Shown here: in pieces, positions 6,627 to 47,860 of the stretch | Layout: every line of letters begins with the position of its first letter | Position numbering within the stretch: the stretch's first letter is position 1 | NCBI GenBank assembly: GCA_026770575.1 | Contig: MU657264.1 | Span: 81,483-135,604 of the forward strand | DNA length: 54,122 nt | Origin: Pelagophyceae sp. CCMP2097 | Lineage: Eukaryota > Sar > Pelagophyceae | Reading direction: 5' to 3' | Notes under the pieces: model-generated | Told to the model about the DNA's origin: nothing | What the model saw: the letters and a program-made list of their open reading frames with translations, nothing else | Databases searched by the model: none | Made by a program: the position numbers and the translations under genes

Positions 6627-9600
6627 ATGGACGAGGCTTCTGAGTCTCCGCTGCCGCCTGCGCTGCTTCGGTCGCTGGGGGACCGTTCGTACGACAAGCG
6701 TAAGGGTGCCGCCTTAGAGATCGAAGCATTAATCAAGGCATCCGACCGGCGTCCAAAGCGATGAGTCTTTCGCCCCTAGACCGAAACTCGACACGCGGCC
6801 AACCGGCGCCGGCGGGGCGGGACAACCGGCGCCGGCGGGGCGGCGCTCAACCGGCGCCGGCGGGGCGGCGGCCGGACCGGCGCGGCCTCGCGGGGCGGCG
6901 CGTCTCCCCTTTGCTTCCGCGTCTTTGCGGGGCCTCCACGCGGCGCTAGGCGCTGGCGTTGGGCAAGGAGACGGACCGCGTCTGCAGCGTTCTCGCCCTT
7001 TTGGGTGCGTGTCCTTTCGGTTGGTGCCCTCTCATATCCTTTGTCCTTTCCGAGTCGGTTGGTCCCCTCTCCTCTTTTCAGGGCGTTTGCGACTCGACAG
7101 ACAGATTTCGTTTGCGACTCGACAGAGGCACACTAGGCCAAGATTTCGCGACGAGCACAAACTCCAACCACCGCAAAGGTGCATCGATTGTCCTTGGATT
7201 GTGGAGTGATTGTCCATTATCCATCCAACGAATGTCTTGTTCACCCCAAAAGATTTACGTCGCACCGGCCTCGCCAGAGCGACCTCGTCACAGGGTTCTC
7301 GTCGCAGAGACATTGTCGGTGCTTGTCACGGGGACCTTGTATCAGGGACCTTGGAAGAGAGACCTTTTCACAAGGACCTTGCCAGACGGGACCTTGTATC
7401 AGGGACCTTGTCACGGAGACCTTGTCACGGAGATCTTGACGCAGGGACCTTGGCATACGGACCTCGGGTGTTCTTGCCATAGGGTTCTTGTCACATGGTT
7501 CTTGTCGCGGGAACCTTGTCACGAGGACCTTGTCACAGGGACCTTTCACGGGGACTTTGTCACGGGGACCTTGTCACGGGAACCTTGTCACGTTCCCACG
7601 GTGGTCTTGTCACGGGGGCCTTGTCACAGTGACCTTGGCACAGGGACCTTGTCAAAGGGATCTCGTCGAGGAAATTTGTCAAAGGGACCCTGTCACGGGA
7701 CCTCGTCGCAGCGACCTCGTCGCGGAAACATCGTGAGCCCTTGTCTTACGGATCTCGCCGCGGGGCCCGTGTCACGAGGTTCTTGCCACAGAAACCGCGT
7801 CACGAGGACCTTGTCGCACGGGCCTCGTCACAAATGACTCGTCAGATGGTTCTCGTCGCAGGGACCCTGTCAGATCTTGTCGCAGGGACCCTGTCACAAG
7901 AGTTCTCGACGCAAGATTCTCGACACGGGGGACTTTATCACACGGACCTTGTCGCACGGGGCCTCGTCGCACGGGCCTCGTCACGGGGAATTTATCACAC
8001 GGGCCTTGTAAAGGGGAATTTATCAGAGGGTTCTTGTCACACGGCCCGTGTCACACGGGCCTTGTAAAGGGGACAAGTCGTCTGGATTCTGCTCCCGAAA
8101 ACCTGCCACATGAGGTTCTCGTCAAAAGGATCTTTGCACAGAATTATGAGTCACAGGTTCCTTGCCACAGGGACCTCTGGGTTTACAGGGCTCTTGTCGC
8201 GGGGGCCTTGTCACAGGGTCCTTGCCACTGAGAAGTGGCCACGGGGTCGTCGTCACAAGAGCTTTGTCACGACGACGTTGCCACGGGGTCCTCTAGTTCT
8301 TGTCACGGGGTCCTTGCGGTGGGGACCTTGTCACAGGGTCCTCGCACAGGGACTTTTCACACGGGTCTGTCACACGGACCTCGCCACACGGTCCTCGTCG
8401 CACGGTCCTCGTCGCACGGACCTCGTCGCACGGACCTCGTCACACGGACCTCGTCACGGGGGCTTTGTCAGAGGGACTTTGTCAGAGGGTTCTTGTCACG
8501 AGGACCTTGGCATAGGGACCATCCAATAGGGACCTTGTCACGGGGACCTTTGTGACAGGGACCTTGTACCACGGACCTTGTATCAGGGACCTTGCCACAG
8601 GGACGTTGCCACGGGGACGTTGTCCCGGGGATGTTGTCGCAAGGACGTTGCCACGGGGACACGGGGGCATGCCTTTGGGTGGATAAGGCAAGTGGTCGGA
8701 GACCTGGCCCAAAGGAGAGGCGGCATTGCAAGAGCTTTGCAGATTCTGACTGGCCACCCCTCGTCGATCCGGCCCCACTTTAGGCGGCCTCATCGGCCTG
8801 GCCGCGACTGCGATTGGGCTGGCGAAGCACGTCTCCGACTATCTCGACGCGCTCCTGCCGCCGGTCCTCCACTGCCTCGACGACCCAGAGTCGCGCGCGC
8901 GTTGCGGCGTTGCGCCTTTCCGCGTTTTCGGACCGTCGGGCTGGCGGGGTTCCCCAGGGGCTTTGTAGGTGCGTTACTACGCGTGCGAGTCGTTGTACAA
9001 CATCGCAAAGGTCGCGCCGGCGTCGGGCCTTTGCTTAAAATCCACTCTGCGTTTGTGCGTTTGTGCCTTTCACCGAGGATTTGAATTAGGTGGCGAGAGG
9101 GGCCGCGCTGCCGTACTTTAACCAAATCTTCGACGGCGTCGCGAAACTCTTCGCCGACGCGCAGAGCCGCGTCTTTCTTCGCGTCTTTCTTCGCGTCTTT
9201 CTTCGCATGTTGCGCGTCGACGCGTCGAAAACGCACCCCACAGTTTTGGGGGGTGGGAATACGGGTTTCCGCAAGAGGCGGGAACCCAGGCGGCGCAAAG
9301 GCGGGTGCGTTCTGGGTCGAGCCCGTCACGGGGACCACCCGTACGGCCCTCGAAGCTTGTGATCGCCCCCGAGACGACCCCTTGATACGGCCCTCACTCA
9401 AGACGGCCCCTTACGGCCCTCGAGACGGTCCGAAGAGACGGTCCTGCGAGGCAGTCCGGTCCAAGACTGCCTCGAGAACGGCCCTGGTGTACGGCCCTTG
9501 ACAACGGCCGGAGAGACCGCCTCGATACGGCCCCTGGACAAAAGCCTCGAGAAGGGCCCCTGTGTAGAATCCTGCAGGTCGTCCGAGAGACGGTCCCTCG

Positions 9601-12600
9601 GCCCTCTGGAATGTCTCTTTCGATGCGGCCCAAAAAGACGCACTTAACGGCCCAAAAAGACGCACCTCACGGCCCAAAAAGACGCACCTCACGGCCGCGT
9701 ATGGCCCTCCAGCTACAACTCGAGACGGTCCGATGAGACGGTCCGATGAGACGGTCCGATGAGACGGTCCGATGAGACGGTCCGATGAGGCGGCCTCTAT
9801 TTAGCCATCTCAACGGCCCCTTGCCCCTTGCAGACGGCCCTCGAGACGGTCCCCCTCGAAAGGCCCCTCGAGACGGCCCCTCGAAACGGCCCCTCTCGAA
9901 CGATCCCAAGAAGGCGGTCCCTCGTCCCTCGAGACGGCCCCTCGAGACGGCCTCGATGGACGGCCCCTCGAAACGGCTCCTCGAGACGGTCCCTCGAGAC
10001 GGTCCGAAGAGACGGCCCTTTGAGGCGGCCACGAGTCCTCGAGGCGGTCCTTTGAGACGCTCCCTCGAGGCGGCCCTTTGAGACAGCCCTCTCGAGGCGG
10101 CCTCTGTACGGCCCTCTCGACGGTCCCTCTGGAATTCCTCGAAACGGCCCAACGGGGCTCTACGGCCCAACGGGGCAGTCCCGTCTTCGAGGCCGTCTCT
10201 GTACGGCCCTCCACGGTCGCTTGATACGGCCCTCTTGAACGGCCCTCTTTATACTGTCGCGGCCCCTCGAAACGGCCCCTCGAAACGGTCGCCGACCCGC
10301 GGACGGAGCACCGGCCTCCGGTCTCAGGGCGGCGGTCCTTCTGGACGGCACCTCTGGGCGGCCCCTTCTCGGCGGTCCCTTCTCAGGCGGTCCCTCGAAA
10401 CGGCCCTCTGTAAGGTCCCTCGAAACGGCCCCGTCCCAAGGGCCGTTTGGACGCCCAAAGTGTTCTGGACACGGTTCCTCGAGATGGCCTCTGAGTTTCT
10501 TCTCGAAAAGGCCGCTGTCCTTCTCCGCGGTCCCGTTGATGCCTTGAGACGGTCTTGACAAACCCTCGAGACGGCCGAGGACGACCCCTCTGTATGGTCC
10601 GTGGAGCCGGTCCCAAGAGACAGCCCCTTGAGACAGCCTCTTGTCCCGCTGTACGATCGTCGGTCCCTCTGGACGGCCCTTGGAAACGGCCCCGCTCGAC
10701 AGTTTCCTCTCAGAGGTGCCTCTGGGCGGCCCTTGGAGGCGGTCCCTCTGGCCCAAAGACAGCGGCCCAAGAAGAGGGTCCTCTCAAACGGCCATTTTTA
10801 AAGGCCTCGAGACGGTGGCCTTTCCCGGGCGCAACACAACCGCCTGCAACGCGGTGCAATCCAACGCGGTCAAGGGGCACCGGGTTTTCATTCGCGCCGG
10901 CCGCGGCGTGCAGGCGCGCGAGTCGGCGGCGGACCCGCTATCGGCGCCGCTCAGAGTCGGTTCCTGCCCACTGCCTTGGTGCTGCGGCGGACCCACCCAG
11001 AGCCTTCGGGGCATTCGGACGTGGGGGCATTCGGACATGGCGGCTCGCAAGGCCGTCTGCTTAGAATACGTGGGCGGAGATGGCGGCCGGAACCCAACTC
11101 GAATTCGCAAGCCTCCGTGGACAAGGCTCGAGATTTGTCGATAGGTCGACATCGACGTGAAGAACGGCGCCAACCTCCTCGACCGCCTCGTGCGCCGGCG
11201 ATGCGGGGGGTGTGCGCCAGGACCCACTGTTCCAGAGTTGGAACTGGCGCCATGTCCCCAAGGATTGACAATTCGCTCTCCAAGGATGGATCGGCACGTA
11301 GATCAAAGACATCGTCACGGAATCGCCCACCTTTGAGATCGCGCCCTTTATCCCGCTCCTCCAAAAATACATCCGCCGAAGCAACCCCTACATCCGCCAG
11401 CTCGTAGTCGGGTGGATCACCGTGCTCGATTCCGTAAGTCGCAAGTCTCCAACATTTGAGTTTTAAAACCGAAAGCCGCAGGTCCCCGACATCACCATGC
11501 TCGACTGGCTGCCCGACTTTTTGGACGGCCTCTTCGCAATGCTCTCCGACTCGAACCGCGAGATCCGGTCGGCGGCCGAGGCGGCCATAAACGGCTTCCT
11601 CGTCGACATTGCCAACTCCAAGACGGTCGAGTTCGGGCCCATGGTGCCCATCCTCGTCGATCAATGCAGAGCCCAGGACCGCGCGAGGCGCTGCACCGTG
11701 CGCCGTGGCTCTTTTTTTCGACTTTTTCGAACTTTGGGAATCTTGAAACCGTAGGCGGTGACGTGGGTGCGGCAGTTCATCGAGCTCGGCAAGTCGGCGC
11801 TGCTCTTGTTTTATTCTGAGCTGCTGGGGTCCATCATGCACTGCATCGCCGACACCGATGTCGAAATCCGTAAGAAGCTTTGCCCGACGAGAGGGCAGAT
11901 TCGGAATCCAACGGTCCTCGATGGCATTGCGGATCATCACCTCGCAACGGCTTTTTGACGGGCCCTTGCTCCATCGGAACATGGACCGGCCCTGAAAGCG
12001 GCCTCAAGAGACGCTTTTTGACGCGGTTCAGAGAGGCGCGGGCCCGAGGAGCGGCCTCAAAGAGACGCGGTTCAGAGAGGCGCTTCTTCTCTCGAAGACG
12101 GCCCCCGCTCGTCCACGACACGTTTCGACACGTGGAAATGCTTCCCGCGGCCTCTTGGATCAAGTGGGGATCTCACCCCCGGAAATCCCGTTTGCCAGGG
12201 CATACGTCAGTGACAGATGGTGTCATATTTTCATGTCAACAGCCGCTCCTCGATGCGCAGTTGAGAACTGCGACCTTGGATTCAGTGGGGTTTCACCCCC
12301 GGTGCGGCCCTTGTCGAACAAGGTCCTTTGGTCTCTTCTCAACGGCCCCTCTCAACGGCCCCTCTCAACGGCCCCTCTCAGCGGCCCCTCTCAACGGCCC
12401 CTCTCAACGGCCCCTCTCAACGGCCCCTCTCAACGGCCCCTCTTCAACGGCCCCTCTCAAGGGCTCCTCGAGGGCAGCCCCTCTGAAGGGCCACTCGAGA
12501 GTGACCCCCAGGTTTCAAGGGAGCCTCTCGAAACGGGCCCTCGGGAAGGGTCCCCAGGGCGGTTCCCTGAGTCCGCCCATCGAGGGGTTGATCGACTCGG

Positions 12601-15600
12601 CATTCGAGACAGACGAGTCTGGAGGGCCTCTCGAGAACGGCCCCTGAACAGGGGACGGTCCTTCGAAACGGAAACTCGACTGCGCAAATCGACGTGGTCG
12701 CGCTGGACGGCCCCAAGCGAGGTCGATGGCGCCTTGGAACGGCCCCTCGAGTCAAGGCCTTTCTTGCCTTTGAGACGAGCGCGGCGCACGAGTCGACGGG
12801 TCTTTGGATGTGGGAAATTCCCTCGAGACGGGGCCCTCGAGATGGTCCTTTGGCATGCGAAAACGGCATTTTTGAAAACAGCCCCCCTTGAATTTGGCCC
12901 CGACTGAGTTCATCGAGCGAGTCGAGACGGTTCCAAAGGGGCGGTTCCAAAGGGTCTTCTTCCTTCAACGGCCCCTCGTACGGTCCTTGGTATCAAGCGG
13001 CCCCTCTCGAGGCCGCTCTCAAGTCGAACCGTCCCTGACGATGCCCTTGCAGTCTCTCTGAAAGGGCTTCGAGTTCGGAGACGCAACGGCCCCCAGTCGA
13101 GGCCTGAAGACGGTCCTTCAAGGCGGCCCCTCGAGAGGCACTTTTTCGAGCTACTTGTTCGAGGCGGCTTCTCCAGGCGGTCTTCCCGTCGACGGCCTTG
13201 CTTCAACGGCCTTGCTTCAACGGCCCAGAGGTCCACAAGACGGCCTTGCCAGGCGGTCGCTCGTACGGCCCCAAAGGCGGTCCCGAGTTGGCAGGTTCCG
13301 AGTTGGCGGGCCCCGTTTCAAGCGTCTCTCTTTGGCCTTATTGGGCGGCCCCACCTCTCCGGATCTGGCCTCGATGGGCGGCCTCTTGACCGGGAACGGC
13401 CCCTCTGCAAGGCCCTTGAGCCAAGGCCCGTGTGCGAGGTCCAAGTCCCAAAGAAACGGAGAAACGGGTCATCAGCACCATCTCGAAGAGGCGGCCCCGA
13501 GACGCACCGTCCGAAGGGAACGGTCCGCAAGGGAGGCCAATCGAAGAGCGAGTCGATGGAGACGGGCCCTCGAAGCGGGGAACAGTCCATCGAGGCGCAC
13601 CGTCCTTGGGCACGACGTTGCACGACGCCCCCTCGAGACAAGGCCCTCCAAAAGCGAGCCTCTCTTTGTTGACGCGCCCTCTTCTCGGCGGTGCCTCAAA
13701 ACGGCCCTTGCAGGACGGCCCCTCCTCGTCGAGTCGGCCCCGCCGGACGGCCCCTCGGAAGGGTACTGAGACGGCAACCGGCACTTGCAACGGCCTCGCT
13801 CTCGAGGGTTGTGCTGCTGAAAAAAAAAGCCTTTGAGGCGGGGCCCTTTTGAGACGGTGCGCCCCTCTGGATTGCGGCGGATTGGGCGGCTTCTCCGGAC
13901 GAGACACCTGCGACAGGCCTTTGAATGCTTGGAATGAGACGGACACCCTCTCTGCAATGTGGCGTACTCGGACCGGGCAGGGGCCTCTGCAAGGCAGAAA
14001 CCGGGCCCTCGCAGAAGAGGCAGAAGAGGCGGCTTTCAACTCGAGGCGGCTTGCTCGAGGCGGCCTCTCGAGAAGACGGCCCCTCAAAGATCCGCGGCAA
14101 CGTCTCCAGGTCATGCACACGCCCCGGACCCGCGTGGCAGAATGCCGGTCGCGGGTCCGCGGACAAAGGGGTCTTGCGCGTTTGATTCGACTCAAAGATA
14201 GTCACTCGAGACAGCTCCTCGTCGACAGCTGAACGGTCCTCTCCGGGCGGCCCCTTGACCCCCTCTGCAACGGCCTCGAAACGCACCCCTCTGCAACGGC
14301 CTCGAAACGCACCCCTCTGCAACGGCCTCGAAACGCACCCCTCTGCAACGGCCTTGAAACGCACCCCTCTGCAACGGCCTCGAAACGGACCTCTCTGCAA
14401 CGGCCTCAAAGTCCGCCTTTCCCGGACCGTGCGGCGGCGGCCCCTCGTGCCTTGCAACGGATTTGGGGAACGGCCCCTCGTGCCTTGCAACGGATTTGGG
14501 GAACGGTCCCTTCTCGAGGGCCTTTGGAGGGTCGACGGAGACGGTCTCGAAGTCGAAGGGTCCTCGAGACGGCCTTGTGGCACCTTGATACCTCAACGGC
14601 ACCTTGATACCTCGACGGCATGGGGATTCGGAAGTGGTCCCGAGGGCTGACGTAGGCGCGGTGGCCGGGTCGGCGGACGCACGCTTATTATCCTTGGTCC
14701 GCGAGACGACAGACGAGTTCGAGCTGAGCCCCCTCGTGCAGACGCTGACGCAGGAGCTCCAGTCGACGCACGTCCCGACTAGACTGGCGGCGCTCAAGTA
14801 AGTGCACCCTTGTATTGGAAAATGTGCATCCCTCGACTGAAAACCCCGAGGTGGCTCACCATGCTGCTGGCCAAGGCGCCCGTGGCCATGGCGCGCTTCA
14901 TCGGCGAGGTGCTGCCGTATCTGCTCGTGGCGCTGTCGGACGACTCGGATGACGTCGTCCTGCTTGATTTGGAGGTTTTGGCGCGCATCGCCGTCTTGGA
15001 TGCCGCCGAGTTTAAGAGCGTCCTCGGCGCCATCGTCCGCCTCTTCCGAAACGACCGCCGGCTGCTCGAGACGCGCGGGTCGCTCATCATCCGTAGAGGG
15101 CCGCGTCCGGGCATTGGGCCGAAACTTTGGAGGCCACGGCGGCCGCGGAAGACGGGCCCCTTTCGAGGGCCCCGCGGCGGTCCGAGCATCGCAGGCCCAA
15201 GGGTCCCTTTGAGACGGTCGCTTGGCCGGTTTCCCTCGCGCGGTCAAAGTGCGTCCTCCTTGGACCATCTTCGGCGAACCGGACCCGAGGCCGTCTTTCG
15301 ACGGCCCGTTGTCGGCCTTTCGAGAGCGTCCGCCCTTGCAAAGCAGGCCGGGGCCAGAGGGACCGTCAAGAAGGCGGTCCGAATCGGTTCGGAGACGGTC
15401 CTGGAAAAACCCAAAAGTTTGCCCTCGTCGAAAAGACGCCTCCGGGCTGCGTGCGGCCCTGGAATCTTCAGCCTGCAAGATTCGGCCTGCAATCGACGTT
15501 TATCAGCCCCGTCTTTGTCTTTCGACGGTTTGGGGCGGCCCCCTCTACAGCAGTTGCGACTTTCAATCCAAAAGTCCAAAAGCAAAAGCAACGGCCAAAA

Positions 15601-19259: not shown

Positions 19260-19994
19260 CCAGTATGCCTATTTACGCCACACCTCCTCTCTGCTGCTTC
19301 ACTCCCCTCTCTGCTGCTTCACTCTCGCGGTGGTTCTCTCTCTCTTTCTCTCGGCGATTCTTGCTCTTCTCTTTTTCTGCTGCTTCACTCTCGCGGTGGT
19401 TCTCTCTCTCTTTCTCTCGGCGATTCTTGCTCTTCTCTTTACAAGGGGCCCCGGTAGGGGGTACGCCCTCTGAAGGGCGCCTATTCAAGGGCGCAAGAAC
19501 GTTCTGAGGAACGTTCTTGACGTTTTTTTTTAAAAGTCCGATTTGGGCCGTGGGACCCTCTTCACTCGTCGTAGGCCTATTTGAACGCGTCGGTGCCTTG
19601 GCTAGTTTTTGCACCCCGAGCCTTGGCGGACCGCGGATAACACAGTAGCGCAAAAGCCGTTGTAAAACACATCAAATGGCGATTATCGCTGAAATTGCCG
19701 TTTCTCGCGGGGCGATGCCTCCTGCGTCCCGATGTTGAGCATGCGCTCCGTTGGCTTGGAGGCGGCGCGGCGCAGTCCGAAAGCAGCTGGCCCTGCCTCC
19801 GGCGGGCGGGCGTGTTTCGCGTGCTGATTCGTCGATGGCCGCCATCGGCGGACTGTGGCACATTCAAGAGGCAGAATCCAATAGGGACACCCTCTCCCCT
19901 CTGCGCCGAGGCGGATTCAGCGTCATAAGACGCGCCCTGCTCCTGTAAGGGCCCCCGGAAAGGCAAAGGCCGAGGCGCTGTTGGACTTGTTCAG
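19260..19994. other. 3' flank of VAC14 and intergenic DNA
   Basis: Holds two 67-bp tandem copies starting CTGCTGCTTCACTC (19311 and 19378), which are CT-rich, and then the inverted copy of the 2114-2160 segment (19447-19491). Two AACGTTCTTGA(C) motifs near 19497-19522 form a short palindrome. No gene recognised; open frames in 19640-19960 lack known domains. Confidence 0.4.
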
Positions 19995-20467: not shown

Positions 20468-20689
20468 ACAGGCCGCCGCGCCGGGCGTCGAGGAAGTGGT
20501 CGCTGAAAGAGATAGGGTCGCCGGGCTTTGGGGCTGGTGGATTTGTTTTGGGAATGGGAGAATGATGCGGCTCTGCGTACTTCAACTGCCAGGCGCCGAG
20601 GACGGAGGGGAGTTCCGGGGGTGCGCCGGAGCAACTTTACCGACGACGGGAATCGGATTCTGGACCGTACAATTCCAGGATTCCTATCC

Positions 20690-21150: not shown

Positions 21151-21221
21151 GCTACTCGCGACCTGGAAAAAAATCTGTTGCAATGGGCAAAATAAAAAAA
21201 TTGAAACATGCCTCCTGACCG

Positions 21222-36200: not shown

Positions 36201-39200
36201 CTCTCTTCAACGGAGAGTCGTGGGTCCGTTGAAGCACGGTCCCTTGCAAAGGTCGCTCGAAAAGGGCCCTCTGCGCGCGAGGCCCCAAGACGCCGTCTGG
36301 AGACTACTGGTCGTACGGGCCACGATGCCCTGAATTCGCCGAGCCGCAGAGCCTGTCCGGGGTGGATCCCAGACAGCATTCGCGTGGCCCCTTTTCGGCG
36401 GCTGGCGGTGTTCCCCTGCGACCGCCAGAGGAGCCTCTGTAGAGCGTGGACCGTTGAAGCGCGAACCCAAAGGCCCTCGGGGGACCGACGCAGCGCACGT
36501 TGACCCCAGACGTCACGCCCCAGAGGCGTGCCTCGGACCGGGCCGTCGCTATTACCGGCGTGTCGGACAACTCGCAGATCGCCTTGCCGCAGACGGTTCA
36601 AACGCGCCCTCGCAGATTGCCTCTTCGCCCCTTGAATTGCCCCTTGACATGCCCCTTGACATGCTCGCGCATCCCGCGCACCCGCAAGCACCAAGGCCGC
36701 ACGATAGGTGCCACGCCGGCTATGTGGCCTTGGGCCAAGCCAAGCACGCCGGGGCGCCGCGCCACGGCGCCGACGCGGAAGCGCTGCCTGTGATGCTCGA
36801 CGGCGCCGTAGTTGGGTGCGTTTTTGAAAACACGCAAAACACCGATTTTATAAACCAACAAGGTACGCCTCGGACGCCGTCTGCGCCGCCGCCGTCGCCG
36901 TCCTCCGCCACCTGAAGACGCGCCTGGTATTCGGCTTTGAAATCGACGCCACGCTGGAGGTCCGTTTGGGCGAAGCGGGTGCCGTTGAAAAAAGCGGGGC
37001 CGATTGGGCCCTTTTCGTTCGAGCCCAGTCAAAGGTGCTGTCCGACGAGGCCCGTCTCTCAGGTGGCTCACGTGCGCCCTGGCTCGGCGCACGACCCGGC
37101 GGCGCCGGCGGCCGGCTTGTTCCTCTTCTCGCAACCGTCGCGTTTCTTGAGGCCCGTGGTGCAATGCGCGCGCGTGCCCAGACTGGTGAGCGCGGCTTGC
37201 CACAGTGAGCAAATGACCAAATCTGCAAAAAGTTTGAGCAAATAAACGTCCCGGAGAAGGTCCGTTGACGGGCGACGGTCCCGGGGACGGTCCGTCGACA
37301 GTCTATCGACAGTCTATCGACGGCCCCGGAAATGGTATCGGGCCATCGTCGGTCCGTGGATGGTCCCGGAGACGGCTCCAGAGACGGCTCCAGAGACGGA
37401 TCGAGAGGAGGCGCCACCCTGACGTCGTGCCGTCCAAAAGACCCGCTTTGCGGGTCCAGGGCCGGAGAACGGCGGCCTCTGTAAAAGTCCCGGAGAAGGG
37501 CTCTGCGGCCGGGGGGCGGTTCAGAGAGGGGCCCGGAGACGGGCCCGGAGACGGTCAACTGGCGTTCTATTGGCGTTTCCGGAGACAGGCCACGGTCTGC
37601 CCGTTGGAGGGCCCCATTCAACGGCCCCGGAAGCGGCCCGGAGACAGCCCGGAAGCGGTCCTTGTAGAGGCCCCAAACGTCGGCTCGAGGCCGACGTTTG
37701 AGCAAGATTGAAAATGATCCATCTTTTTAGGAACTCATCGGCTCCTTTGAGCAGACGACGTTGCAAGTCGCCGTGACCGCGGAAGCCACGGGCGCCTCGC
37801 TCGGCGCCCCGTCCACGCACGCCGAAGTCGACGCGGTCGGCATGCTGTCCATCTTGGCCTCTCTCACTCCCTTTTCCGACTACAACCAGTCGCCCCGAAA
37901 CATGTACCAGTGCCAAATGGGCAAGCAGACGATGGGGTGCGTCTCCCGACGGCGCGGGTTCGAATTTGAAAAGAAATGAACCCCCCGCGCCGTTAGGTCG
38001 CCGGCGCACGGCCTGGTGCACCGGTGCGACAATAAGATGTACCGCATTCTGTTCCCGCAGACGCCCATCGTCCGGACGGGAGCGTACGACTCGTTTGGGT
38101 TCGACGAGTACCCGCAGGTGCGGCTTGGACCTTGTATTTGGTACTCTGAAAATACAGCGCTTGCCTCTCAAAGAGCCCCCGCTCGCCTTAGGGCTGCAAT
38201 GCGGTCGTGGCGGTCATCTCCTACACGGGCTACGACATGGAGGTCCGTCGGGGATGCAAGCTTTGGAACTCGCGTGGCGCCATCGCCGTTGAAATTTCAA
38301 AAGTCGCCCAACAGGACGCGATGATCATCAAGAAGTCGTCGTACGAGCGCGGCTTTGGGCACGGGGTGGTCTACAAGACGCACATCGTCGACATCGACGA
38401 GGTCCGTCGGAGTTTTTGGAGTTTTTTCATTTTTTTTTCATTTTTTTTTCATTTTTTTCGTCGGAGTTTTTTTCATTTTTTCATTTTTTCATTTTTTTCG
38501 ATTTTTTCATCTCCACGACGGGGCTTGCGAGGGGAAGAGAGGGCCCCCCGAAACGGCGAAAAATGCGGTTTCGAGAGAGTCGCTCGAGATGGTGCCTTTC
38601 GAGAGTGCGCCGTTCCAAATCCTTCGAGAGTCGAGGCCCCTCGAGAGTCGAGGCCCCTCGAGTCCAGGCCTGTCTTTGCGCTTCCCGGACGGTCCCGAGT
38701 GGGTCTCGCCAGGCGGCTCTGATTCGCCGGCCCGCTCCCTCGCCGGTCCCTCAAAGGGCTCCGATTGACGGCCCCTCGGCGGCCCAAAGGGGCGTTGAAA
38801 TGGGCAAAGTCTATGGAGACGGCATCGAGACGGCATTGAGACGGCATTACGGAAAGGGCCGTCTGGAATGCGGCCAAGGCGGCGGTCCTCGAGGTCCACG
38901 GGCCCGTCTGGAAGGTTTTTCGAGACAGTTTCGAGAACAAAGTGCCGAGGGGACGGTGCCAAGAAGACGCCTGGGCAGCTCCGAGAAGTTCTCAAGGCGG
39001 GTCCGAAGAGGCTTTCTGAACGGCGGCCTCGAGAAGGCCGCTGGACTCGATGGGCGCGCGCCCCGATGCCGGTGGACTCCTCTGCGAGGTCCTTGGAAAC
39101 GGCCCTTTGAAAACGGCGGCCGAGGGGCATTTGCGGCAAATCAGGCCGTTGCAAGGGTCGAAAACGGTGACTCTTCAAAAGTCCAATCGGCCCCCGAGGC

Positions 39201-42200
39201 GGGTCCAAGAGGCCCGTTTCTTGGACCAGGGAAGCGGTTCGGGCGGCGGCCAGGAGGGGCCCTTTTTGCGACGGCCACCAGGCCCGCATTTTCAAAGGGC
39301 CAAAGCAAGACGGGCCCAAGAAGCATCTTTCAGAAGGGGCCTCTCGAGTGTGCCGATGAACGAGGTCCCATTTCGACCGCTCCAGGGTCCTTGCCGGGGG
39401 TCCGAAGCCAAGGTCCCGAACGGAAGCCCTTGCCGCGAAGCTTCAAAAGTCGCTCGAAAGAGTTTCGTCGCCCCCCGCTCCAGGGTCCCTTCTCGACGGT
39501 CTTGAGCCCCCGCCGTTCTCGAGGGTCCGCGCGAGAGACGGCCCCTTCTGGAGGGCCCCTCGAAACGGCACACCAATCGAAACGGCCCTCGAAACGGCAC
39601 ACCAATCGAAACGGCCCTCGAAACGGCACACACATCGAAACGGCCCTCGTCTGCCTTTGGCACTTGGTCAATCTTCGCCGATTTGGGGCGGTTCCGAGCA
39701 AGTCCGTGTTTTCCGACGGCGCTCCGCTGGAATGCGGCACCGGCCTTGATACGGTCCTTGAAACGAGCCTCCATCTCTTTGAGGGTATCTTCTGGACCGC
39801 CCAGGAAAAGTCGCCGATCACCTTTGGGCGGCCCCATTGCCGTCCTTGAAATGGGCCCCTTCTTGAGACGCACCCGCCCGTCGATCTTTGGCGGCCTCTT
39901 CTTGGCAGCTGGGCCTCTTCTTGGCCGGCCCGGAATGCGACGTCAAGAAACGGCGGCTCCTCGAAACGGCGGCCCCTGAAACGCGGAAAATGGCAAATCG
40001 AGACTCGCTGAAAACACGGAAAATGGCAAATCGAGACTCGGCCCCGAGGAGACGGGCCCCTCGAGGCGGCCGATTCTCGCTGAGTCGATGCGGCGAGTCG
40101 GTGCGGAGGCGGCCAAACGGACAAACGAAAAGGCCCCTCTTGTGAAAACGTGTGCATTTATTTTAAAAAGCAGAGCCCACCCTCGGGAAACCCCCCGTCT
40201 AGGAAAAGACGCGGCGCGGCAAGCACGCCGACGGCCGCGCGATTGCCTCGCTGCGCTTCGCCAGGACGGCGCGCGGCGCGGGCGCGGCGGGGGCGTCGGA
40301 CGAGGCGCTGAAGAACATTGGTGACGACGGTGGGTTTCCGTTCATATTGGTCTTCTCTTTCGTCATACTCTTTCGTATGAACATCCGGCCACCCGCAGGC
40401 CTGCCGGAGGTCGGGTCCTTCATCTCGCCGGGCGAGCCGCTCTGGTGCGTTGCTCGGAGCGGCGACTTGCATGGGTTTTATGACGTCCCCTTGATGGATT
40501 TCATGAAATCCCCCTGATGGTCTTACCCCCGCTAGGTCGGCCGTGGACGACGCTCACGGCGACCTCATCGTCGGCCTCCTCAAAGACACAGAGCCGGCCT
40601 ACGTCCAGACGGTGCGCCTCGTCGGGTGAGTCTTAGCACCTTGCTGCGCTTCTCGGCGCTTCTGGCGCCGCCGGCCTTTGTCTCCGGGCCGGTGTGCGCG
40701 CCGTGGACTCTGCGGGCTTAGTCTCATGGGCCGCCCCTTCCTTTTGGAGCTGACGGGAGCTGGGGCGGTGTATTCGGATCGGGGTGCCAAAGCGTCGCGC
40801 CTTCGAGGCAGGCCCAAAGAACCAGGCCTTTGAGGCTTGTCGAGGCGGGCCCAAAGAGCGACGGCCCTCGAAGAGACGGCCCCTCGCAAGGTCCTTTGGA
40901 GGCCCGTCGGTCGAAACGGGCCCAAAGACTCGGAGGCGGCCCCTCTCTCACAAAGGATCGGCGGGCCCTCTCGGCCCTCATGGATACAGCGGTCGTTTGA
41001 GGCGGGCTATTGAGAGGCGGGTCCTCGAGACGGCCCCTCAACTGCCCCTTTGGACAAGGCCTCTCTATGCGGGCCCTCGAGACGAGCCAGTGAGACGACG
41101 CGCCAGTGAGACGAGCCAGTGAGACGAGCCCTCGAGATGGGCCTTTGAGACGGGCCTCTCACGAGGCGGTCTTTGAGAGGCGGTCTTTCTCTCAAGCGGA
41201 TCGAGGGGCCCTCTCTCCTGCCGCTCTGAACGGCCCCTCTCTCCGGCCCCTCGCGGTCCTTCTGCAGCCCCTGTCGTCCACGGCCGCTCCGACGGACCCT
41301 TGAGACGGCCCCTCTCCAAGGACGGGCCCTCGCAAAGGGTTGATGAGACGGACAGCCCCTCGAGCAGGATCTTGATGGTTTCTCGGAAAGCTTCGCACCC
41401 TCTTGGCGGACCCCTCGAGACGGGCCCTCGGGAGACGGGATCCAAGCAGACGGCCCCGAGAGACGGGCTCTCGAGACGGGGCCGGGCAAGCGACCGCCGA
41501 AGAGGCCTTACAGAGGCCCGCTCGGAGAGCTTTTTAAGGGCCCTTGAAAGAGGCCTCGCAAGTGACCGCCAAAGAGGCCTTGCAGAGGCCCGCTCGGAGA
41601 GCTGTTCAATTTGTGCCGCACCCTCGGGTCGCGGGTTTGTCGAGCGACCATCGGGTCCGGGTTTGGGCCACGGCCAAACCCACTCAAAGACGGGTCTGCC
41701 AAAACGCGCACACACGTCAAACCCGACGCGTGGGTTGAAGGGCGAACCCGCCGCTGCTCCTATCTCCGGCTCCTCGAAACGGCGTCTCGAGGCGGCGTCT
41801 CGAGACGACGCTGGAGGCGGCCACTCGAAACGGCGCCTTGGGACGGCGCTCCGAGAAGGCCCCCCGAGACGACCCCTTTCGACGGCCATTCGAAACGGCC
41901 CCTCGAAATGGCGCCTCGAGGAGGCTCTCTCCGGCCCCTCGAGACGGCCCCTGGAGACGGCCATTCGAAAAGGCCCCTCGAGGAGGCTTCTCGAGACGGC
42001 CCCTCGAGATGGCCCTTTGGATGGCCATTCGAAACGGCGCCGTTTCGACGGCCCGAAAGACTCGGACGGCCTCTCGGATGGTCGCTTGGGCGATGACTTG
42101 TTCCTTTGGACAGTTGCTTGAATTGTCCCTCGAAGGGCCCCATGTGCGCTTAGATCAGGAGCTTCAAACGGTGTATTCGGGTTGCTCAATTTGTGCTGAA

Positions 42201-45200
42201 CCCTCGGGTGGCGGGTTTGTCGAACGATCAAACCCGTCTTCGAAGGGTTCGGGTTGGGGCCACGGCCAGACCCGCGGGTTTGCTCGTCGACGCACGCAAC
42301 AGTTCGGGTCGGGTCGACCCGTACTTTAAAGCCCCTTTCCGGAGAGCCACCGTCCCGCGGCGTCGATGTCGCCCGCGACCGCGCGGTCCGAGTTTCAATG
42401 TATGATTCACACGACAATTGCACACTATTAGAAAGCCGAGCGGAGAAACCCCGGTTCGATCCTGGATGGTTCGGCCTTGCAGGGCGCGATGCCGGCGCCT
42501 GCCAGAACCCGCGGTTTGTCGGGGACCCGCGGGTTTGCCACCCGGCGCGCCCGCGCGGGTTCGGGTTTGTACCCGCGGGTCGACGGGTCGTCCAAAACGC
42601 GCAAACCCGGCAAACCCGACCCGCGGGTTTCGGGTAAACCCGGACCCGTTTAAAAAGGCCCCGCAAGCGACGGCGCAAGTGGCCGCGAAAGAGGCCTTGC
42701 AGGGGCCCGTCCGGAGGGCTCTTCAAGGGCATCTGAGAAGAGGCCTCGTAAGTGATCGCGCAGAGGCCGGGCGAGTGGCCGCGAAAGAGGCCTCGCAGGG
42801 GCCCGCACTGTCGAAGATGCGGTGGCGGCGGTGTTTTCGGGTTTTCAATTTGTGCAGCACCCTCTGGTGGTGGGTTTGGCAAACGCCCGAGCCCGTCTTC
42901 GAAGGGTCTTGAGGGGCGAACTCGAAGGTCGGGGCCTCGCCTGGCATACCAAGTTGCCTGGCATACGGGGCCTCGTTTCCGAAAGGCTCCGCACGGACCT
43001 CGACGATGTACGGGCCTCGCAGGGTCGAAGAGGGGTCGGCGCCCTTTTGGCCGTTTGAAGAACCGGAGACGGGCCTCTCCGGTCCGGGACGGACCCTCCC
43101 CGGCAGCGGGGTTTCGGGCCGTTTTTTCCCACCGGGGTGTGGACCTCCGGGTCCTTTTGGAGGGCGGAGTCGGCTCACTGGCCGTCCGATTCGGCCATCC
43201 GGGGGCGTTTGAAACGGCCCTTGTCCGTGTGGATACTACGGTCCTTGGAGAGGGCCGAGGACGAGCGTCCTGTGGAGACCTTCCAAAGGGGTCGTCGATG
43301 GGAAATGGAAGGGCCCTTTCGACGTGCCTTGAGAGGCGGCCGACGCCGTCTCCGGGGCGGTCGCTTTAGTCTGGCCCGTCTACGTCGACGCGCTCCGAAT
43401 CCTCCAAAGGGTCCTGGAGACGGTCCAGAACCGGAGACGGCCCTGGGTTTTCTCGCTGGGTTTTCTCTCTGGGCCCTTTCTGGACAAACCTCTCCGCAGC
43501 CGGGGCACTGTCCCGACACGCCGGTCCTCCGCCTTGATAGATTCTTCCTTTTCGCGGAGCATTTTCTTCTTCAGGTGCGGCCAGCAGTCGCTCAGCCGCA
43601 AGGCCGTCATCACGTTGCGGTACCCGCGCAACCCCGTCATCGGCGACAAGTTCAGCTCGCGGCACGGCCAAAAAGGCGTCTTGAGCATCTTATGGCCAGA
43701 GTGAGCGGCCCCTTGAGCGGCCGCGCGTGGATTGCGGCACCAGGGGCCTGCGCCAAACGGCCCCCACGCTCCACGTAGGTGCGACATGCCCTTTACCGAG
43801 TCTGGCATCTCGCCCGACGTGATCATCAACCCGCACGCCTTCCCGTGAGCGCCCTTTCTTGAAAACTTTTGAAAAACAACCTCGCCCTGGAAAACATGCA
43901 CACTTTTGAAAAACAACCTTGCCGGGCATGGCCGCAGGTCGCGCATGACCATCGGCATGTTGCTCGAGTCCATGGCGGGCAAGTCGGGCGCGCTGCACGG
44001 CGCGCCGAAGCACGACGGCACCCCCTTTGCCTTCCACGAGAAAGACAGAGCCGTGGATTACTTCGGTCCGTTTTCGTGGCCGTTTTGGATGACTTGGGTC
44101 CGTTGCCGTTTTCGAGAAGCGCTCTCCTCAGGCGAGCAGCTCCGCGCCGCGGGCTACGAGTACTTCGGCGCCGAGCCTGTGTACTCGGGCTTCTCCGGCG
44201 CTCTCCTCCAGGTCCGTGCGGTTCCGGGGCGCCTCGTAGCCATGGCAACTGGCCGTTGCGTGGAAATGCGCTTAGGTGGACATTTTTGTTGGCGTGGTGT
44301 ACTACCAGCGGCTGCGGCACATGGTGTCTGACAAGTCGCAGGCGAGTTTCGGAGAGGCCACGTCGAGAACGACGTCGAGAAACGTCGAGAATCGGACCCT
44401 CAAACCCGCGGAGAAGGCACCCTTTGAGCCCACGCACCCGTTGGCGCTCCAAAGTCGGAGGAGGCCCTTTGGACGGTCGGGCTTTGCGAATGCCCGTCCT
44501 GATGACGGTCCTCTTGACAAAGGCCCTCTTGACAAAGGCCCTCGAGAGGGGCCCTCCTGAAGCACAATGCCCTCGACGCGGGTCCCGAGAACGGGCCCAC
44601 TGCTACGTCTGGAGAGCCCCGAAATCTGAGCCCGAAAAAAGGACGGAATGTCCATCTCGTCCGAGCCCCCCGACGCAAGATTGCACGGCCCCGAGAGCAA
44701 GGCCCTCGGTACGGGCCCTTTGGACACGGTGACGGCCTTGAACCCGGTGCAAGGTCCCTTCGGACGGCCCCTTTACAAGGCCCCTTTAAAAGATCTGGAC
44801 GGCCCCTCCTCGACGTCTCTCTGCAAGGTCCCGATAGCAAGATCCCTCTGGACGATGCCGATGAACGGGCCCTGTCGAAAGGCCCGATGAACGGGCCCTC
44901 TGGACACTCGCGGCGGAGAATCCCGGCGCAAGGTCCCTCGTCGACGGCCCCTCTGGGCCACTCTGGACGGGCCCTCGTCGACAGTCCCTGGATGCACCCC
45001 GATGCAAGGTCTCGATCGAGACCGCCTCCTCTGGACAGTCAATCAGCTCCGTCCCTTTGAAATGCCCTCCGGGCGGGCCCTCGTCGAAAGGGCCCTCCTC
45101 GACGGCCCCCTCTGGAGGGGCCCTCTCCAAGGCCTCTCTCTACATGTCTCTCTCTACATGTCTCTCTCTACCTGTCTCAACGGGCCCTCTGAAATTCCCT

Positions 45201-47860
45201 CTGGATGTGGCCCATTGGAAGTTGTCGATCGACCGGCCCGTCTGGAGGGGCCCAATGGACATGCCATTTGAAGGGGCCTGCAAGGATGACTCTGCAAGGT
45301 CCCTCCCGGCCTCTCTCGACAGTCCCAGTAGACGGCCCCTCTGGGCGGTTCTTCCGGAAAGTCTCTCTGGTCGGGGCCTTTGAGAACGGGGCCTCTGGAT
45401 GGTCCCTTTGGCGCCTCCCTTCTCTAGACGCACCCCCTCTGGAAGGTCCATCTCAACGGTCCCTCTCAAAGCTCCGATGGACTTTTTCTCTGCAAGGTCT
45501 CCATGGGCCCTTCTAGACAGTCCCTCTAGACAGCCCCTCTGCAAGGTCTCTCTGGAGCGCCCCTTTTTTTGGAGGGGCCCTCTGGATGGGCCCGTTGGAA
45601 CGTCTATACGGCGCCATTGGGGTTCCTTGGATTCTCGGCCTCTTGGACGGTCAAACTGAACGGCCCCCTCGACGGGCTCGATCGACCGGCCCCATCAGGA
45701 CGGTCCAACTCCGGACATTCCAAGAAAAAGGGCCCTCTCGACGTCCCCTTTGGACGGTGTCTCTGAAAGGTCGCTCTGGGCGGGTTTTTCTCGACGGTCT
45801 TCCTCCTGGATGGTCTCTCTGGACGGGCACTCTGGGCCCCTCTCGACAGTCCCTCTGGACGGGCACTCTGGGCCCCTCGAACAGTCCCTCTGGACGGGGC
45901 ATATTGAAGGTCCATCCAGACGGCACCTCTGGACGGTCTCCCTGGAAGATGCCTCTCAGAGGGGCAGGCCCTCTGAAGGGCCACTCGAGACGATCCCTCT
46001 GCAAGGCCCCTCTGGGCAACTCGAGGCAGTCCCCTTGGATGGGCCCTCTGGACGGGCCATTTGGAATGTCTCTATGCGGCCTCCTCTGGACGGTCCAACC
46101 GGCGTTGCGTTTGAAAAGTCCATTCAAGACGGCCCCCTTTGAACGGTCTCTCTGGATGATCTTGCTGCAAGGGCCCTCTGCAAGGGCCCTGTGTATGGTG
46201 TTTCGACGGTTTGATCTCTGAGAGGCCTATTTTGACGCTCCTTGGAGACGTTGCCTCTCCACGACGCTCAATGTCCCTGCAAGGTCCCTCGAAAGGGCCC
46301 CGAGAGGCGCCTTGCCAAAGGCCCTCGGGGACGCTCGAGACTGGCAATCGCGGTCTCGCGAACGGCCCTTTGCGGAGCGAAACGGCCCTTTGCGGAGCGA
46401 ACGGCCCTCGATGCGGGTTTTTTGAAACGGGCCCCGAATGGACGGCCCTCGGAGACGGCCCCGACGAGACGGGGCCGCCCTCTATACGGCCCCTTGGTCC
46501 ATGTTTCAGACGGTCCCGCGAAACGGCCCTTGGAAGAAACGGTCCCAAGAAATCATCGAGACGGTCCTTCAGGGACAGTCGGACGGCCCTCGATGGACTC
46601 GGCTTTTCCGGAAACGGCCCCTCTGGACTGCCATTCGACGTGGTCTGTACGGGCTAAAACGGCCCCGGTCTACGGCCGTCCGGACGCATCGAGCCGGCCA
46701 TCGAGTCCTCGTCGACGATCCTTTGAGACAGCCCTCGAGCCAGCCCCTCGAAACTGCCTCTATACGGCCCGTGGAGTCGGCCCTCTAAACGGGCCCTACG
46801 TCAATGACGGTCCTCGAAACGGTGAATCGAGATGATCCGAGAGATGGTCCTTTGGGACAGTCCTCTCGGCGGCCCTCAAGCGGGCCATCGAGTCCTTGTT
46901 GAGGGTCCTTCGAGACGACTGCCCTCTATTGCAGAAGCGGTCCCCCCCCCCCGAGACGGTGACTACCAACGGCGGTCCCCGGCCCTCGAGACTGCCGCTC
47001 GCTGCTCTGGAAGACCCCTCTGGGCGGCCCTTGTGAAGAGCCGTTCGAACAGCGAGGCTTGATATGGAACAGTGGGACAGTCCATGGAAAGTCCCTTTGC
47101 TGCTCTGCAACGTCCCTGTCCTGCAGACGATGCTCTCGAATGACCCTCTACATTCGGCCCCTCTGGACGAAGTTAATTTCGACCCTCTGACATTGGGAGA
47201 CGAAAATGGAGAACGTCTCACTGAGAGTGGTCGAGAATACCGAGAAGACTCTGAAGAATCCCGAGAGAAAACCAACTAGGTCCGGTCGACTGGCCCAGTG
47301 CATCAACTCACTCGCCAGCCTATCAAAGGCCGCAAGCGCCACGGCGGCATTCGCTTGGGCGAGATGGAGCGAGACGCGCTCCTCGTGCGAAGCGGCGTCG
47401 GCACGATGCAACGGCAAAGGGATCGCCGAAGAAGCAAAAGTTTCCGACTTTGGCAAATGGCGGAATGGCGCCTGTTGGGAAGCGGCCTTTGTGGGACTGG
47501 TGGGCCTTTGTGGGATTGTCGGAACGAGGGCGCGCCGATCTCGGGCCCGCTCTAGGCGCACGGCACGGCCTTTTTGCTGCACGATCGCCTTTTTGAGTGC
47601 TCGGACAAGCACACGGCGGGCTTATGCGTCTCGCCCAACGGAGAGGGGTCCATCCTCGTGCCGATGCGCACGAACCACGACGAGGAAAAGGGCGAAAAGG
47701 TCTTCTCCACGCTCGTCATGCCCTACGTGTACAGGCGCGTTTATTTGCGCCTTTGGGCCTCGACGACGCGGCGGAAAGCCCAAAGTGCCCCGCCAGGTAT
47801 CTCGTCAACGAGCTCGTGGGCATGAACGTCAAGATCCAGCTCCGCACAAAATCCGTTTAG
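24258..47860 (+). CDS. RPA2: RNA polymerase I second-largest subunit (RPA2/RPA135)
   Basis: Thirty exons, about 1,153 residues: 24258-24431, 24714-24866, 24909-24997, 25071-25116, 26496-26584, 26648-26771, 28838-29139, 30390-30548, 32251-32415, 32476-32584, 34939-34992, 35056-35183, 36708-36815, 36863-36959, 37063-37185, 37731-37936, 37997-38117, 38192-38242, 38315-38401, 40203-40329, 40399-40444, 40536-40625, 43575-43700, 43779-43844, 43938-44065, 44132-44211, 44276-44341, 47280-47384, 47556-47734, 47797-47860. Pol I hallmarks: [61 protein letters not shown] (~691-709), [16 protein letters not shown] (~760), [12 protein letters not shown] (~905) and [15 protein letters not shown] (~1066). 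With the largest subunit it forms the catalytic centre for rRNA synthesis in the nucleolus. The C-terminal zinc-ribbon cysteines are absent. GC donors at introns 7, 27 and 29; intron 8 could alternatively start at 30522 (GC), 9 residues shorter. Exon 12's end (35183) is the least certain. Coding is 3.5 kb of 23.6 kb. Confidence 0.95.
25117..26495 (+). repeat. RPA2 intron 4: composite element and ACGGCCC array
   Basis: From 25250 the composite-element head appears (GGCCAAAACGCGCAAACCCG, then GGCTCCTATCTCCGGCTTCT). An array of CTCGAGACGGCCC follows (25382-25770), then the tail (GGTCGCTTGGGCGGTCCCTG, TTTGGACAGTTCTTTTGG; later CACTCGGCTGCCGGCCCC at 25909). 26020-26060 has three 17-mers TTTGGACACTTCCTTTG. 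A second partial head lies at 26215-26410. Confidence 0.88.
26772..28837 (+). repeat. RPA2 intron 6: ACGGTCC repeats and a 25-nt array
   Basis: CGAAAAACGG 12-mers near 27318-27360 lead into four 25-26-mers (GGTCCGTTGACATTTTGTCG plus ACGAC) at 27408-27512. Long degenerate ACGGCCCCT/ACGGTCCCGAAG tracts then run to about 28390. The last 450 bp before the acceptor are not visibly repetitive. Confidence 0.85.
29140..30389 (+). repeat. RPA2 intron 7 with 105-bp direct duplication
   Basis: 29649-29751 and 29887-29993 are nearly identical (TTTTCCGTGAAAAAGGCACT ... GGTGGTGGCACCGTGCCGAG). Shorter local repeats include AGAGGGCCC (30040-30085) and CCATGCCATCTCTTGCCACC (30108-30150). ACGG-type repeats dominate the first 500 bp. 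Confidence 0.85.
30549..32250 (+). repeat. RPA2 intron 8: several unrelated short arrays
   Basis: GGCGATTGGAATC 12-13-mers at 30570-30645; GGAATTACCCCGGAGTC 13-17-mers at 31393-31498; GGGTCCAGAAAAC 13-mers at 32070-32150. ACGG-core repeats lie between them. The three dialects in one intron suggest independent local expansions. Confidence 0.85.
32585..34938 (+). repeat. RPA2 intron 10: GTCGACGGCCCCCTT array and CACGGGGAC repeats
   Basis: A clean array at 33195-33410 uses GTCGACGGCCCCCTT with GTGTCAACGGCCCC and GATGGCAACGGCCCC variants. 33485-33540 has two and a half copies of a 27-mer. 34300-34860 uses a CACGGGGAC / TTGCCACAGGGACG dialect like VAC14 intron 3. A telomere-like CCCTAACCCGAACCCTAACC sits at 34150. 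Confidence 0.88.
35184..36707 (+). repeat. RPA2 intron 12: mixed short repeats
   Basis: Includes GAGGCAAAACCCTC 14-mers (36028-36075), AAGGAGGCCAAC 12-mers (36133-36165) and paired CCGTTGAAGGCCCCGTCTCA units (35737-35780). Fewer ACGGCCC cores than other long introns. Confidence 0.8.
37186..37730 (+). repeat. RPA2 intron 15: 12-nt GACGGTCCCGGA array
   Basis: 37255-37640 is dominated by 12-mers of the type CCGGAGACGGTC and CCAGAGACGGCT, the same dialect as the array upstream of VAC14 (6127-6430). The shortest repeat-filled intron (545 bp). Confidence 0.85.
38402..40202 (+). repeat. RPA2 intron 19: poly-T tract then ACGG repeats
   Basis: Starts with a T-rich region of ATTTTTTTTC units (38425-38515), followed by CTCGAGAC/ACGGC repeats. 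Four units of a ~29-mer (GAAACGGCACACCAATC plus GAAACGGCCCTC) lie at 39560-39650. Confidence 0.85.
40626..43574 (+). repeat. RPA2 intron 22: longest intron, composite element copies
   Basis: 2.95 kb. A CTCGAGACGGGCC array occupies 40990-41480. A full composite element follows at about 41600-42130. Partial heads lie at 42180-42640 and 42790-42930, each starting near a TTCAATTTGTGC or TCAATTTGTGC block. Much of 42500-42650 is GCGGGTTTG/AACCCGC repeats. Confidence 0.85.
41600..42130 (+). repeat. Composite intronic element, copy 3 (RPA2 intron 22)
   Basis: Head: TTCAATTTGTGCCGCACCCT, GCGGGTTTGTCGAGCGACC, CCACTCAAAGACGGGTC, CAAAACGCGCA, GTTGAAGGGCGAACCC and GCTGCTCCTATCTCCGGCTC. Then 13-nt ACGGC repeats (41770-42060). 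Tail: GGTCGCTTGGGCGATGAC and TTTGGACAGTTGCTTG. The cleanest copy; same orientation as the gene. Confidence 0.8.
44342..47279 (+). repeat. RPA2 intron 27: CTCTGGACGGTCC-type array
   Basis: 2.94 kb, GC donor (CAG|gcgagt). Nearly all of 44480-47060 consists of degenerate 13-16-mers in a CTCTGGACGGNCCC / CTCTGCAAGGTCC dialect, with three TACATGTCTCTCTC units at 45141-45180. The sense-strand bias of ACGG is retained. Confidence 0.88.

Follow-up and report, generated by a model that had tools for sequence, protein, structure and literature searches.

Sense-biased tandem repeats with an ACGGYCC core in the long introns of VAC14 and RPA2 from Pelagophyceae sp. CCMP2097

What lengthens certain introns of a compact alga, and why the repeats within them should face the same way as the gene, are the questions raised by a stretch of 54,122 nucleotides from Pelagophyceae sp. 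CCMP2097 (contig MU657264.1, here C101, positions 81483-135604; assembly of 66.2 Mb in 638 contigs). This stretch, referred to as the window, carries the genes VAC14 and RPA2, whose long introns contain tandem arrays that share an ACGGYCC core lying overwhelmingly on the coding strand. The locus bears on two open questions, namely why introns lengthen and why they sometimes do so only on certain chromosomes.

Gene models were built ab initio and used no RNA data. A coding model was trained on 30 DEAD-box loci found with Pfam in the same genome, a two-strand gene model was then applied, and a few VAC14 exons were placed by eye on top of it. The VAC14 coding sequence spans approximately 6627-18957 on the + strand and was recognized by Pfam domains on the joined predicted exons, most of which were used (Vac14_Fig4_bd, 1.1e-24; Vac14_Fab1_bd, 8.1e-16). 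RPA2, the second-largest subunit of RNA polymerase I, occupies 24258-47860 on the + strand, and its joined exons matched PDB 7aoc_B over residues 48-1022 (E=3e-220). Together the two genes were modelled with 5,048 exon bases and 39 introns, of which 14 measured at least 500 bp (545-3214) and 25 were shorter; RPA2 accounted for 26 introns, 10 of them long. The initial annotation had also counted 14 introns over about 500 bp, and the independent model agrees with it on this point, but not on the 38 short introns it reported, 25 having been found by a model that may miss some. A control set of 36 DEAD/LHC loci from the same genome (126.7 kb) gave 4 introns of at least 500 bp among 71 modelled, a figure in which long introns are under-counted because each locus covers only about 3.5 kb.

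The strand asymmetry was evident from simple word counts. Across the whole window ACGGCCC was present 161 times on the + strand and 10 times on the - strand, and ACGGTCC 63 and 12 times. The 14 long introns held 209 sense and 15 antisense copies of ACGGYCC, where dinucleotide shuffles gave 8.1 (standard deviation 3.0) and 7.25 (standard deviation 2.5), respectively; the 25 shorter introns held 2 and 1, and the exons 0 and 1. The reported abundance of the word on the coding strand and rarity of its reverse were therefore confirmed, as was the scarcity of the core in short introns. Sense copies outnumbered antisense copies in all 14 long introns, four of them weakly (3/0, 3/0, 5/2 and 4/2). In the 18.2 kb of the window outside both genes there were 13 sense and 5 antisense copies, eight of the 13 lying just upstream of VAC14. 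The control loci contained 39 copies, both strands combined (0.31 per kb). In the long introns ACGG occurred 543 times versus 157 by shuffle, and CCGT 139 times versus 142, so that the asymmetry is a surplus of the sense word and not a shortage of the reverse word. CCC and GGG in the same introns numbered 1180 and 741, or 899 and 728 with ACGGYCC masked, and avoidance of G runs as the sole cause was rejected on the comparison of the masked counts with the 209/15 of the motif.

The copies are periodic. Spacing from one ACGG to the next peaks at 13, 26, 39 and 52 nt, the unit approximates CTCGAGACGG(C/T)CC (13 nt), and the profile around the ACGGYCC core reads roughly CCCTCGAGACGGYCCCTCGAGA. Tandem Repeats Finder (TRF) covered 22.5% of long-intron bases, compared with 5.1% of the control loci and 4-5% of the sequence flanking the two genes; the earlier description of these introns as largely degenerate tandem repeats is right as to the repeats, and as to "largely" only if very degenerate copies are counted. 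Among 59 young arrays in the window introns (match of at least 85%, unit 8-45), 29 carried ACGG only, 2 CCGT only, 1 both and 27 neither, and the excess of ACGG-only arrays was significant (29 vs 2, p=5e-7). The ACGG-like core ascribed to the long-intron repeats is lacking, in either orientation, from 27 of the 59 high-identity arrays. Near the ends of long introns sense ACGGYCC was sparse, with 8 copies in the first 200 nt and 10 in the last 200 nt, 20.6 being expected. Matches between introns ran from array to array, some over more than 1 kb, at about 70-80% identity; these were not accepted as proof of transposition of whole arrays, because two tandem arrays of the same unit could align in register.

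All long introns lie on the + strand, and their ACGGYCC counts are given as sense/antisense. In VAC14, intron 7005-8783 (3/0) holds a 14-nt array of GGGACCTTGTCAC, 9160-11301 (39/1) has its top lag at 13, 11870-14655 (29/1) contains the 13-mer TCTCAACGGCCCC in 10.2 copies at 12337, and 15105-17895 (14/3) includes an N gap of 10 bases at 15774-15783. The RPA2 introns are 25117-26495 (10/0), 26772-28837 (24/1), 29140-30389 (3/0, weak), 30549-32250 (5/2, mixed), 32585-35055 (25/3, with the 15-mer GACGGCCCCCTTGTC in 13.5 copies at 33187), 35154-36707 (4/2, mixed), 37186-37730 (4/0), 38402-40202 (8/1), 40626-43574 (14/1) and 44342-47555 (27/0). That each intron has a dialect grown from a common seed, as had been suggested, agrees with the 13-nt periodicity and the recurrent ACGG core, but the first of these dialects, GGGACCTTGTCAC, is not clearly a form of ACGGCCC, diverged or reversed, and its orientation is left undecided. 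It constitutes a second repeat family in 7005-8783, with 97 copies of the 14-mer by TRF, and related words are also found in RPA2 intron 32585-35055. A near-identical stretch of about 600-700 bp seems to flank the N gap of intron 15105-17895 on both sides (15079-16370, read from translations and a 26-bp match, unaligned), beginning within the final 26 bases of exon 14851-15104. This intron was probably lengthened artificially by an unmerged assembly overlap, so that some motifs in its 14/3 may have been counted twice.

Orientation elsewhere in the genome was surveyed in 14 regions of 10 kb. Thirteen (L039-L045 and L052-L057) were picked by an array word on either strand, the gene strand being unknown beforehand, and L058 (C9:33001-43000) was picked for a polymerase exon beside the array word; loci L001-L008 enter none of the counts. 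Genes in these regions were modelled with a strand-neutral non-coding model. Pfam or PDB support was obtained for RtcB, an esterase, an SNF2 protein, a dynamin and RPB2; of ten outside proteins compared with Pfam, five had no match and one had only weak matches. Introns for the main count were hand-picked, and an orientation was called for those of at least 500 bp with at least 4 motifs, at least 75% of them on one strand, a cut-off fixed after the counts had been seen. The 14 window introns gave 10 sense, 0 antisense, 2 mixed and 2 with too few motifs, and 34 outside introns from 13 of the 14 regions gave 20, 5, 4 and 5. Combined, the ratio of sense to antisense was 30:5 by intron (p=2e-5) and 12:2 by gene (p=0.013), or 10:2 by gene outside the window only (p=0.04), the contrary genes being RtcB (11/39) and that of L056 (11/19). 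A stricter recount, whose list was likewise set after the counts were known, dropped or merged introns with doubtful flanking exons (L041:4884, L042:5996 and 7446, L044:5523, L045:7684, L052:7372, L053:2028, L054:6688, L056:3737) and left 23 outside introns, namely 14 sense, 4 antisense, 2 mixed and 3 too few (p=0.03); with the window added it gave 24:4 (p=2e-4). Both counts exclude L040:7581-9773 (17 sense/7), L042:253-2359 (7/15) and L043:9905 to L044:1422 (13/0), as well as L057 (1/37) and three flanks: L041:7082-10000 (28/0), L039:9285-10000 (7/1 on the + strand, no gene) and L040:1-532, whose 11 motifs on the + strand are antisense to RtcB.

Five introns were called antisense, two in RtcB and one each in the dynamin gene, the esterase/ADH gene and L054; L057, with a weak model, is probably a further case. 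For the tests that follow, the 20 outside introns taken as sense are a hand list that overlaps the 20 called sense and includes three undecided there, and the second RtcB intron spans 2192-4378 in the hand list and 3090-4378 in the orientation count. In the 20 outside introns, 59 young arrays divided into 17 with ACGG only, 5 with CCGT only, 1 with both and 36 with neither (17 vs 5, p=0.017); in the five antisense-array introns, 13 young arrays divided into 1, 6, 2 and 4. Adjacent arrays of opposing orientation occur in L040, L042, L045 and L054, and a strand domain extending over a whole region was rejected. The sense orientation is a bias with exceptions, strong but no law, and the earlier proposal that array orientation follows the gene stands as a 20:5 bias outside the window but fails in the five introns called antisense.

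The exact array word was further found to be confined to some of the contigs among the places listed, a point that goes beyond the initial annotation. The 17-mer ACGGCCCCTCGAGACGG occurs 221 times forward and 223 times in reverse genome-wide, and not at all when read backwards. Places were listed in contig order and comprised the first 100 of 444 for this 17-mer, of 745 for a 15-mer and of 119 for a 24-mer. The listed 17-mer places reach C24, with singles on C9, C16 and C21 and none on C2-C6, C8, C10, C11, C13, C14, C18, C19, C22 or C23; those of the 15-mer fall on C1 (67), C7 (26), C9 (1) and C12 (6); and those of the 24-mer fall on 37 contigs among C1-C136, none of them C2-C6. The array-word contigs among the places listed thus include C1, C7, C12, C15 and others. 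On 20 contigs of known length, all 29 listed 24-mer places lay within 4.4 of 15.9 Mb; they form 19 clusters, for which the probability of chance confinement is about 2e-11, the contigs being a non-random set. RPA2 has one high-identity locus in the assembly, on C101, and the matches on C65 and C9 are paralogs at 40-53%. On C9, where almost none of the listed places of the array word fall, the paralog is RPB2; 2 of the 16 introns in the stretch of RPB2 that was read are at least 500 bp long, versus 10 of 26 in RPA2. The array contigs look like a compartment of one genome and not contamination, because RPA2 was found once, and they may amount to chromosomes. In RPB2 itself, a 700 bp intron holds one small sense array (4/1), which contains the sole listed 17-mer place on C9 and is perhaps an array at an early stage.

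The account favoured here, judged about as likely as not, is local tandem duplication in introns, restricted to a compartment, with a shared core and a sense bias due to selection on the nascent RNA. Repeated local duplication ("stuttering") of short segments, laid over older decayed arrays, would build the long introns, which may have grown from about 40-340 bp to 0.5-3 kb. A 13-nt seed close to CTCGAGACGG(C/T)CC would be common to many arrays, its core recurring while the flanks drift into dialects. Confinement of the arrays to introns is presumably owed to selection that keeps exons clean, and reversed arrays would be lost more often, as their unit, GGRCCGT, is one substitution from the donor GTCCGT and could breed cryptic donors. 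How the segments duplicate, that exons are purged of repeats and that selection causes the bias are inferences.

Splice signals in the modelled short introns of the window and control loci (86 pairs) are unusual. Donors are often C at +4, GTGCGT being the commonest (19/86) beside GTGAGT and GTCCGT, GC donors occur in 10/86 pairs, and acceptors end in (T/C)AG, with G following the AG in 75/86.

Of the possible causes of the sense bias, a splice filter is considered the likeliest: selection on the transcript may underlie the bias, given that a single base separates the reversed unit from GTCCGT, a 5' splice site. On the reverse strand, the array variant ACGGACC becomes GGTCCGT. When sites were taken as donor-like if they scored no lower than the 75th percentile of the modelled donors, the window long introns held 4 on the sense strand and 24 on the reverse complement (shuffle 4.7; an earlier donor matrix gave 3 versus 18), the 20 outside introns 5 and 15 (shuffle 7.7), and the five antisense-array introns 1 and 2 (shuffle 1.6). 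With the bar lowered to the 25th percentile, antisense-array introns carried 21 donor-like sites on the transcribed strand versus 40.9 (standard deviation 4.8) by shuffle, and other introns were near their shuffles (120 vs 112; 223 vs 215). The sense set of 34 introns held 677 ACGGNCC words, 39 of them ACGGACC; the five antisense-array introns held 88, one of which was ACGGACC. The donor-like and ACGGACC counts are compatible with a filter that removes donor-breeding arrays. A shortage of cryptic splice sites along the sense strand was also sought in the sense-array introns and not found; solely the reverse-strand excess holds.

A number of observations weigh against the preferred account and its splice filter. 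The ACGGACC difference is not significant (Fisher p=0.07), donor-like words are not depleted on the sense strand of the window long introns (CCGT at shuffle level as above, GTCCGT 14 vs 8.8), and acceptor-like sites show no clear strand asymmetry in the introns tested. Some outside regions were re-modelled with looser settings once motif counts were known. Adding L057 changes the ratio to 30:6 for introns and 12:3 for genes (p=0.035), and when the genes are limited to those outside the window with a homology match the ratio is 11:4 (p=0.12). Introns within a gene may have inherited a common orientation and are therefore not fully independent, and minus-strand genes are few, L039 and L055 contributing one sense array each and RtcB two antisense. 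The contig partition concerns exact words only and says nothing of other dialects on "free" contigs, and the contrast of RPA2 with RPB2 involves two genes only, the RPB2 model being partial.

Four other explanations were weighed. The initial annotation had left the choice between selection on the RNA and transcription-linked growth; the former is possible on the indirect evidence above, and the latter, in its strict form, is disfavoured. Under transcription-linked expansion, slippage or repair at exposed single strands would work, or work better, with the core one way, and no selection on RNA would be needed. Transcribed introns are indeed where the arrays are found, the 18.2 kb outside having next to none (13/5, eight of the 13 just upstream of VAC14), and among young arrays one orientation recurs (29 vs 2). 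However, the five antisense-array introns within genes are at least as repeat-rich as the 20 others (TRF cover 44.8% vs 30.6%), which speaks against strictly transcription-directed expansion, and C and G are almost balanced in the long window introns (C 9086, G 8671; GC skew near zero), so this explanation is considered unlikely. ACGGYCC could instead be a binding site on the pre-mRNA that aids splicing of long introns, with arrays retained for that purpose; in favour of this are the retention of the core amid changing flanks and the presence of at least 3 sense copies in 14/14 long window introns and almost none in short ones. Such a functional RNA element is nevertheless quite unlikely, given that the core is missing from some introns of at least 500 bp (L045:6915-7589, L052:3250-3936 and L058:2117-2847, all 0/0), that the four control-locus introns of this size count 0/0, 0/0, 1/0 and 0/2, that antisense-only introns exist, and that sense copies are scarce near both intron ends (8 and 10 vs 20.6).

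The arrays might also be ordinary minisatellites, their tandem copies co-oriented, their seeds spread from intron to intron within a gene and the surplus of sense arrays a matter of sampling. Motif counts are indeed not independent, and by gene the excess is 12:2 (p=0.013), 10:2 outside (p=0.04) or 12:3 with L057; the near equality of the 17-mer on the two strands genome-wide (221/223) is expected under either view. Set against the intron ratios of 30:5 and, in the recount, 24:4, and against the 29:2 among young arrays of the window, sampling is distinctly unlikely to suffice. That the array-rich contigs derive from a second organism or contamination would suit the sharp partition of exact words among the places listed, but is hardly credible: RPA2 occurs once, on the array side, and RPB2 on a contig almost free of the array word, third-codon-position GC (GC3) is alike (RPA2 0.874, control genes 0.865), and genes on either side are read by a single coding model, trained on control genes. 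A second genome was ruled out on the single RPA2 locus, the one gene tested for duplication, and on the shared codon usage.

The closest described counterpart is found in avian dot chromosomes, where introns show "sequence stuttering", i.e., imperfect local tandem expansions with coding exons intact (PMC12954441). In the portions of that report covered here, one member of a paralog pair, PHF8 and PHF2, lies elsewhere and is free of repeats, intergenic DNA of the dot chromosomes is affected as well, and the authors report having seen the phenomenon in no other vertebrates except for a gerbil gene group (PMC12954441). The algal introns resemble these in their imperfect tandem expansions beside intact exons (TRF 22.5% vs 4-5%; exons 0/1 motif), in the restriction to one class, here of contigs and for exact words only (none on C2-C6 among the places listed), and in a paralog spared elsewhere (RPA2 vs the nearly free RPB2). 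They differ in sharing a 13-nt unit, an ACGGYCC core and a sense bias, the covered parts of the bird account carrying no word on orientation, in the unaffected intergenic DNA of the window, and in unit length, avian units measuring tens to hundreds of bases. When the adjoining introns of VAC14 and RPA2 were searched for copies of exon edges, one 26-bp match exceeded the bit-score bar of the bird paper, at the probable assembly duplication, and the rest were no better than shuffled. The GC elevation associated with the avian case was not seen (long introns 0.625, control-locus introns 0.645; GC3 as above). The algal arrays may work like avian stuttering, yet they are not classed as the same thing. 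A bolder extension, possible but doubtful, is that the alga independently evolved "stuttering chromosomes", with core-driven, transcript-polar intron growth on about a quarter of the larger contigs (37 of C1-C136 by the 24-mer places listed), ACGGYCC rather than GC alone triggering or licensing instability, and splicing deciding which orientation survives.

Other systems share single features. The tandem units that define core-sharing minisatellites measure 10-60 bp and have a GC-rich core in common; in human "core" minisatellites, where most units are 12-30 bp, the flanks drift around a short GC-rich core that recurs from array to array. The 13-nt period ladder and the core profile agree with this definition, but the window arrays are confined to introns and biased in orientation by gene. 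In Daphnia introns, sense and antisense densities of tandem repeats differ, the motifs being short and T-rich, and such strandedness has been described for Daphnia introns and for coding regions of three arthropods (PMC3152781); the algal unit is long and GC-rich, with a 14-fold sense excess in two genes. Genes on the Drosophila Y have gigantic satellite-filled introns (PMC6508621, PMC12965833). They likewise tie tandem-repeat introns to a particular chromosome, but the algal introns measure 0.5-7 kb by the gene models and not megabases. Homologous copies of introners span whole introns including the splice sites; here the best matches between introns run from array to array (about 70-80%), and motifs are sparse near both intron ends. 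Introners are known as sequence common to many introns of one genome (PMC9860276). A literature search, mostly outside subscription papers, found no case of shared-core, sense-biased, compartment-restricted arrays in an alga, and the Emiliania genome paper, which did not come up in it, may mention tandem repeats in introns. The passages covered of an alga genome paper (PMC5966456) held nothing relevant to such arrays. The initial remark that the arrays had not been described therefore does not hold for the general phenomenon, in view of the bird introns (PMC12954441) and Daphnia strandedness (PMC3152781), though the combined algal case was not found in the sources covered. If a compact alga shows a comparable syndrome together with a common core word and measurable strand polarity, it would separate GC, recombination, transcription and splicing as causes, and natural controls are provided by polymerase-subunit paralogs on both kinds of contig and by sense and antisense arrays within one gene.

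A further sense array lies on the + strand just before the VAC14 start, at 6174-6421 (TRF rows 6174-6238 and 6262-6421), and eight + strand copies of ACGGYCC fall within 6130-6380. It could be 5' untranslated region, promoter, or a missed first exon or intron of VAC14, and lies partly in an open frame that reads P-E-T-V/P-E-T-A repeats. Repeated W-A-F helical units, as in FAST-kinase-like proteins, were noticed in the array-rich regions L039 and L054, with a weak match to Pfam FAST_1 in L039 (6.4e-05) and none in L054. Two light-harvesting proteins of the genome had their best matches in multi-domain LHCI chains, followed mainly by chains from red-lineage algae. The window flanks at about 19-24 kb and about 48-54 kb have lower GC and give the impression of being rich in mobile elements; predicted exons at 50886-51275 encode a C-terminus that presumably resembles the dimerisation region of hAT transposases.

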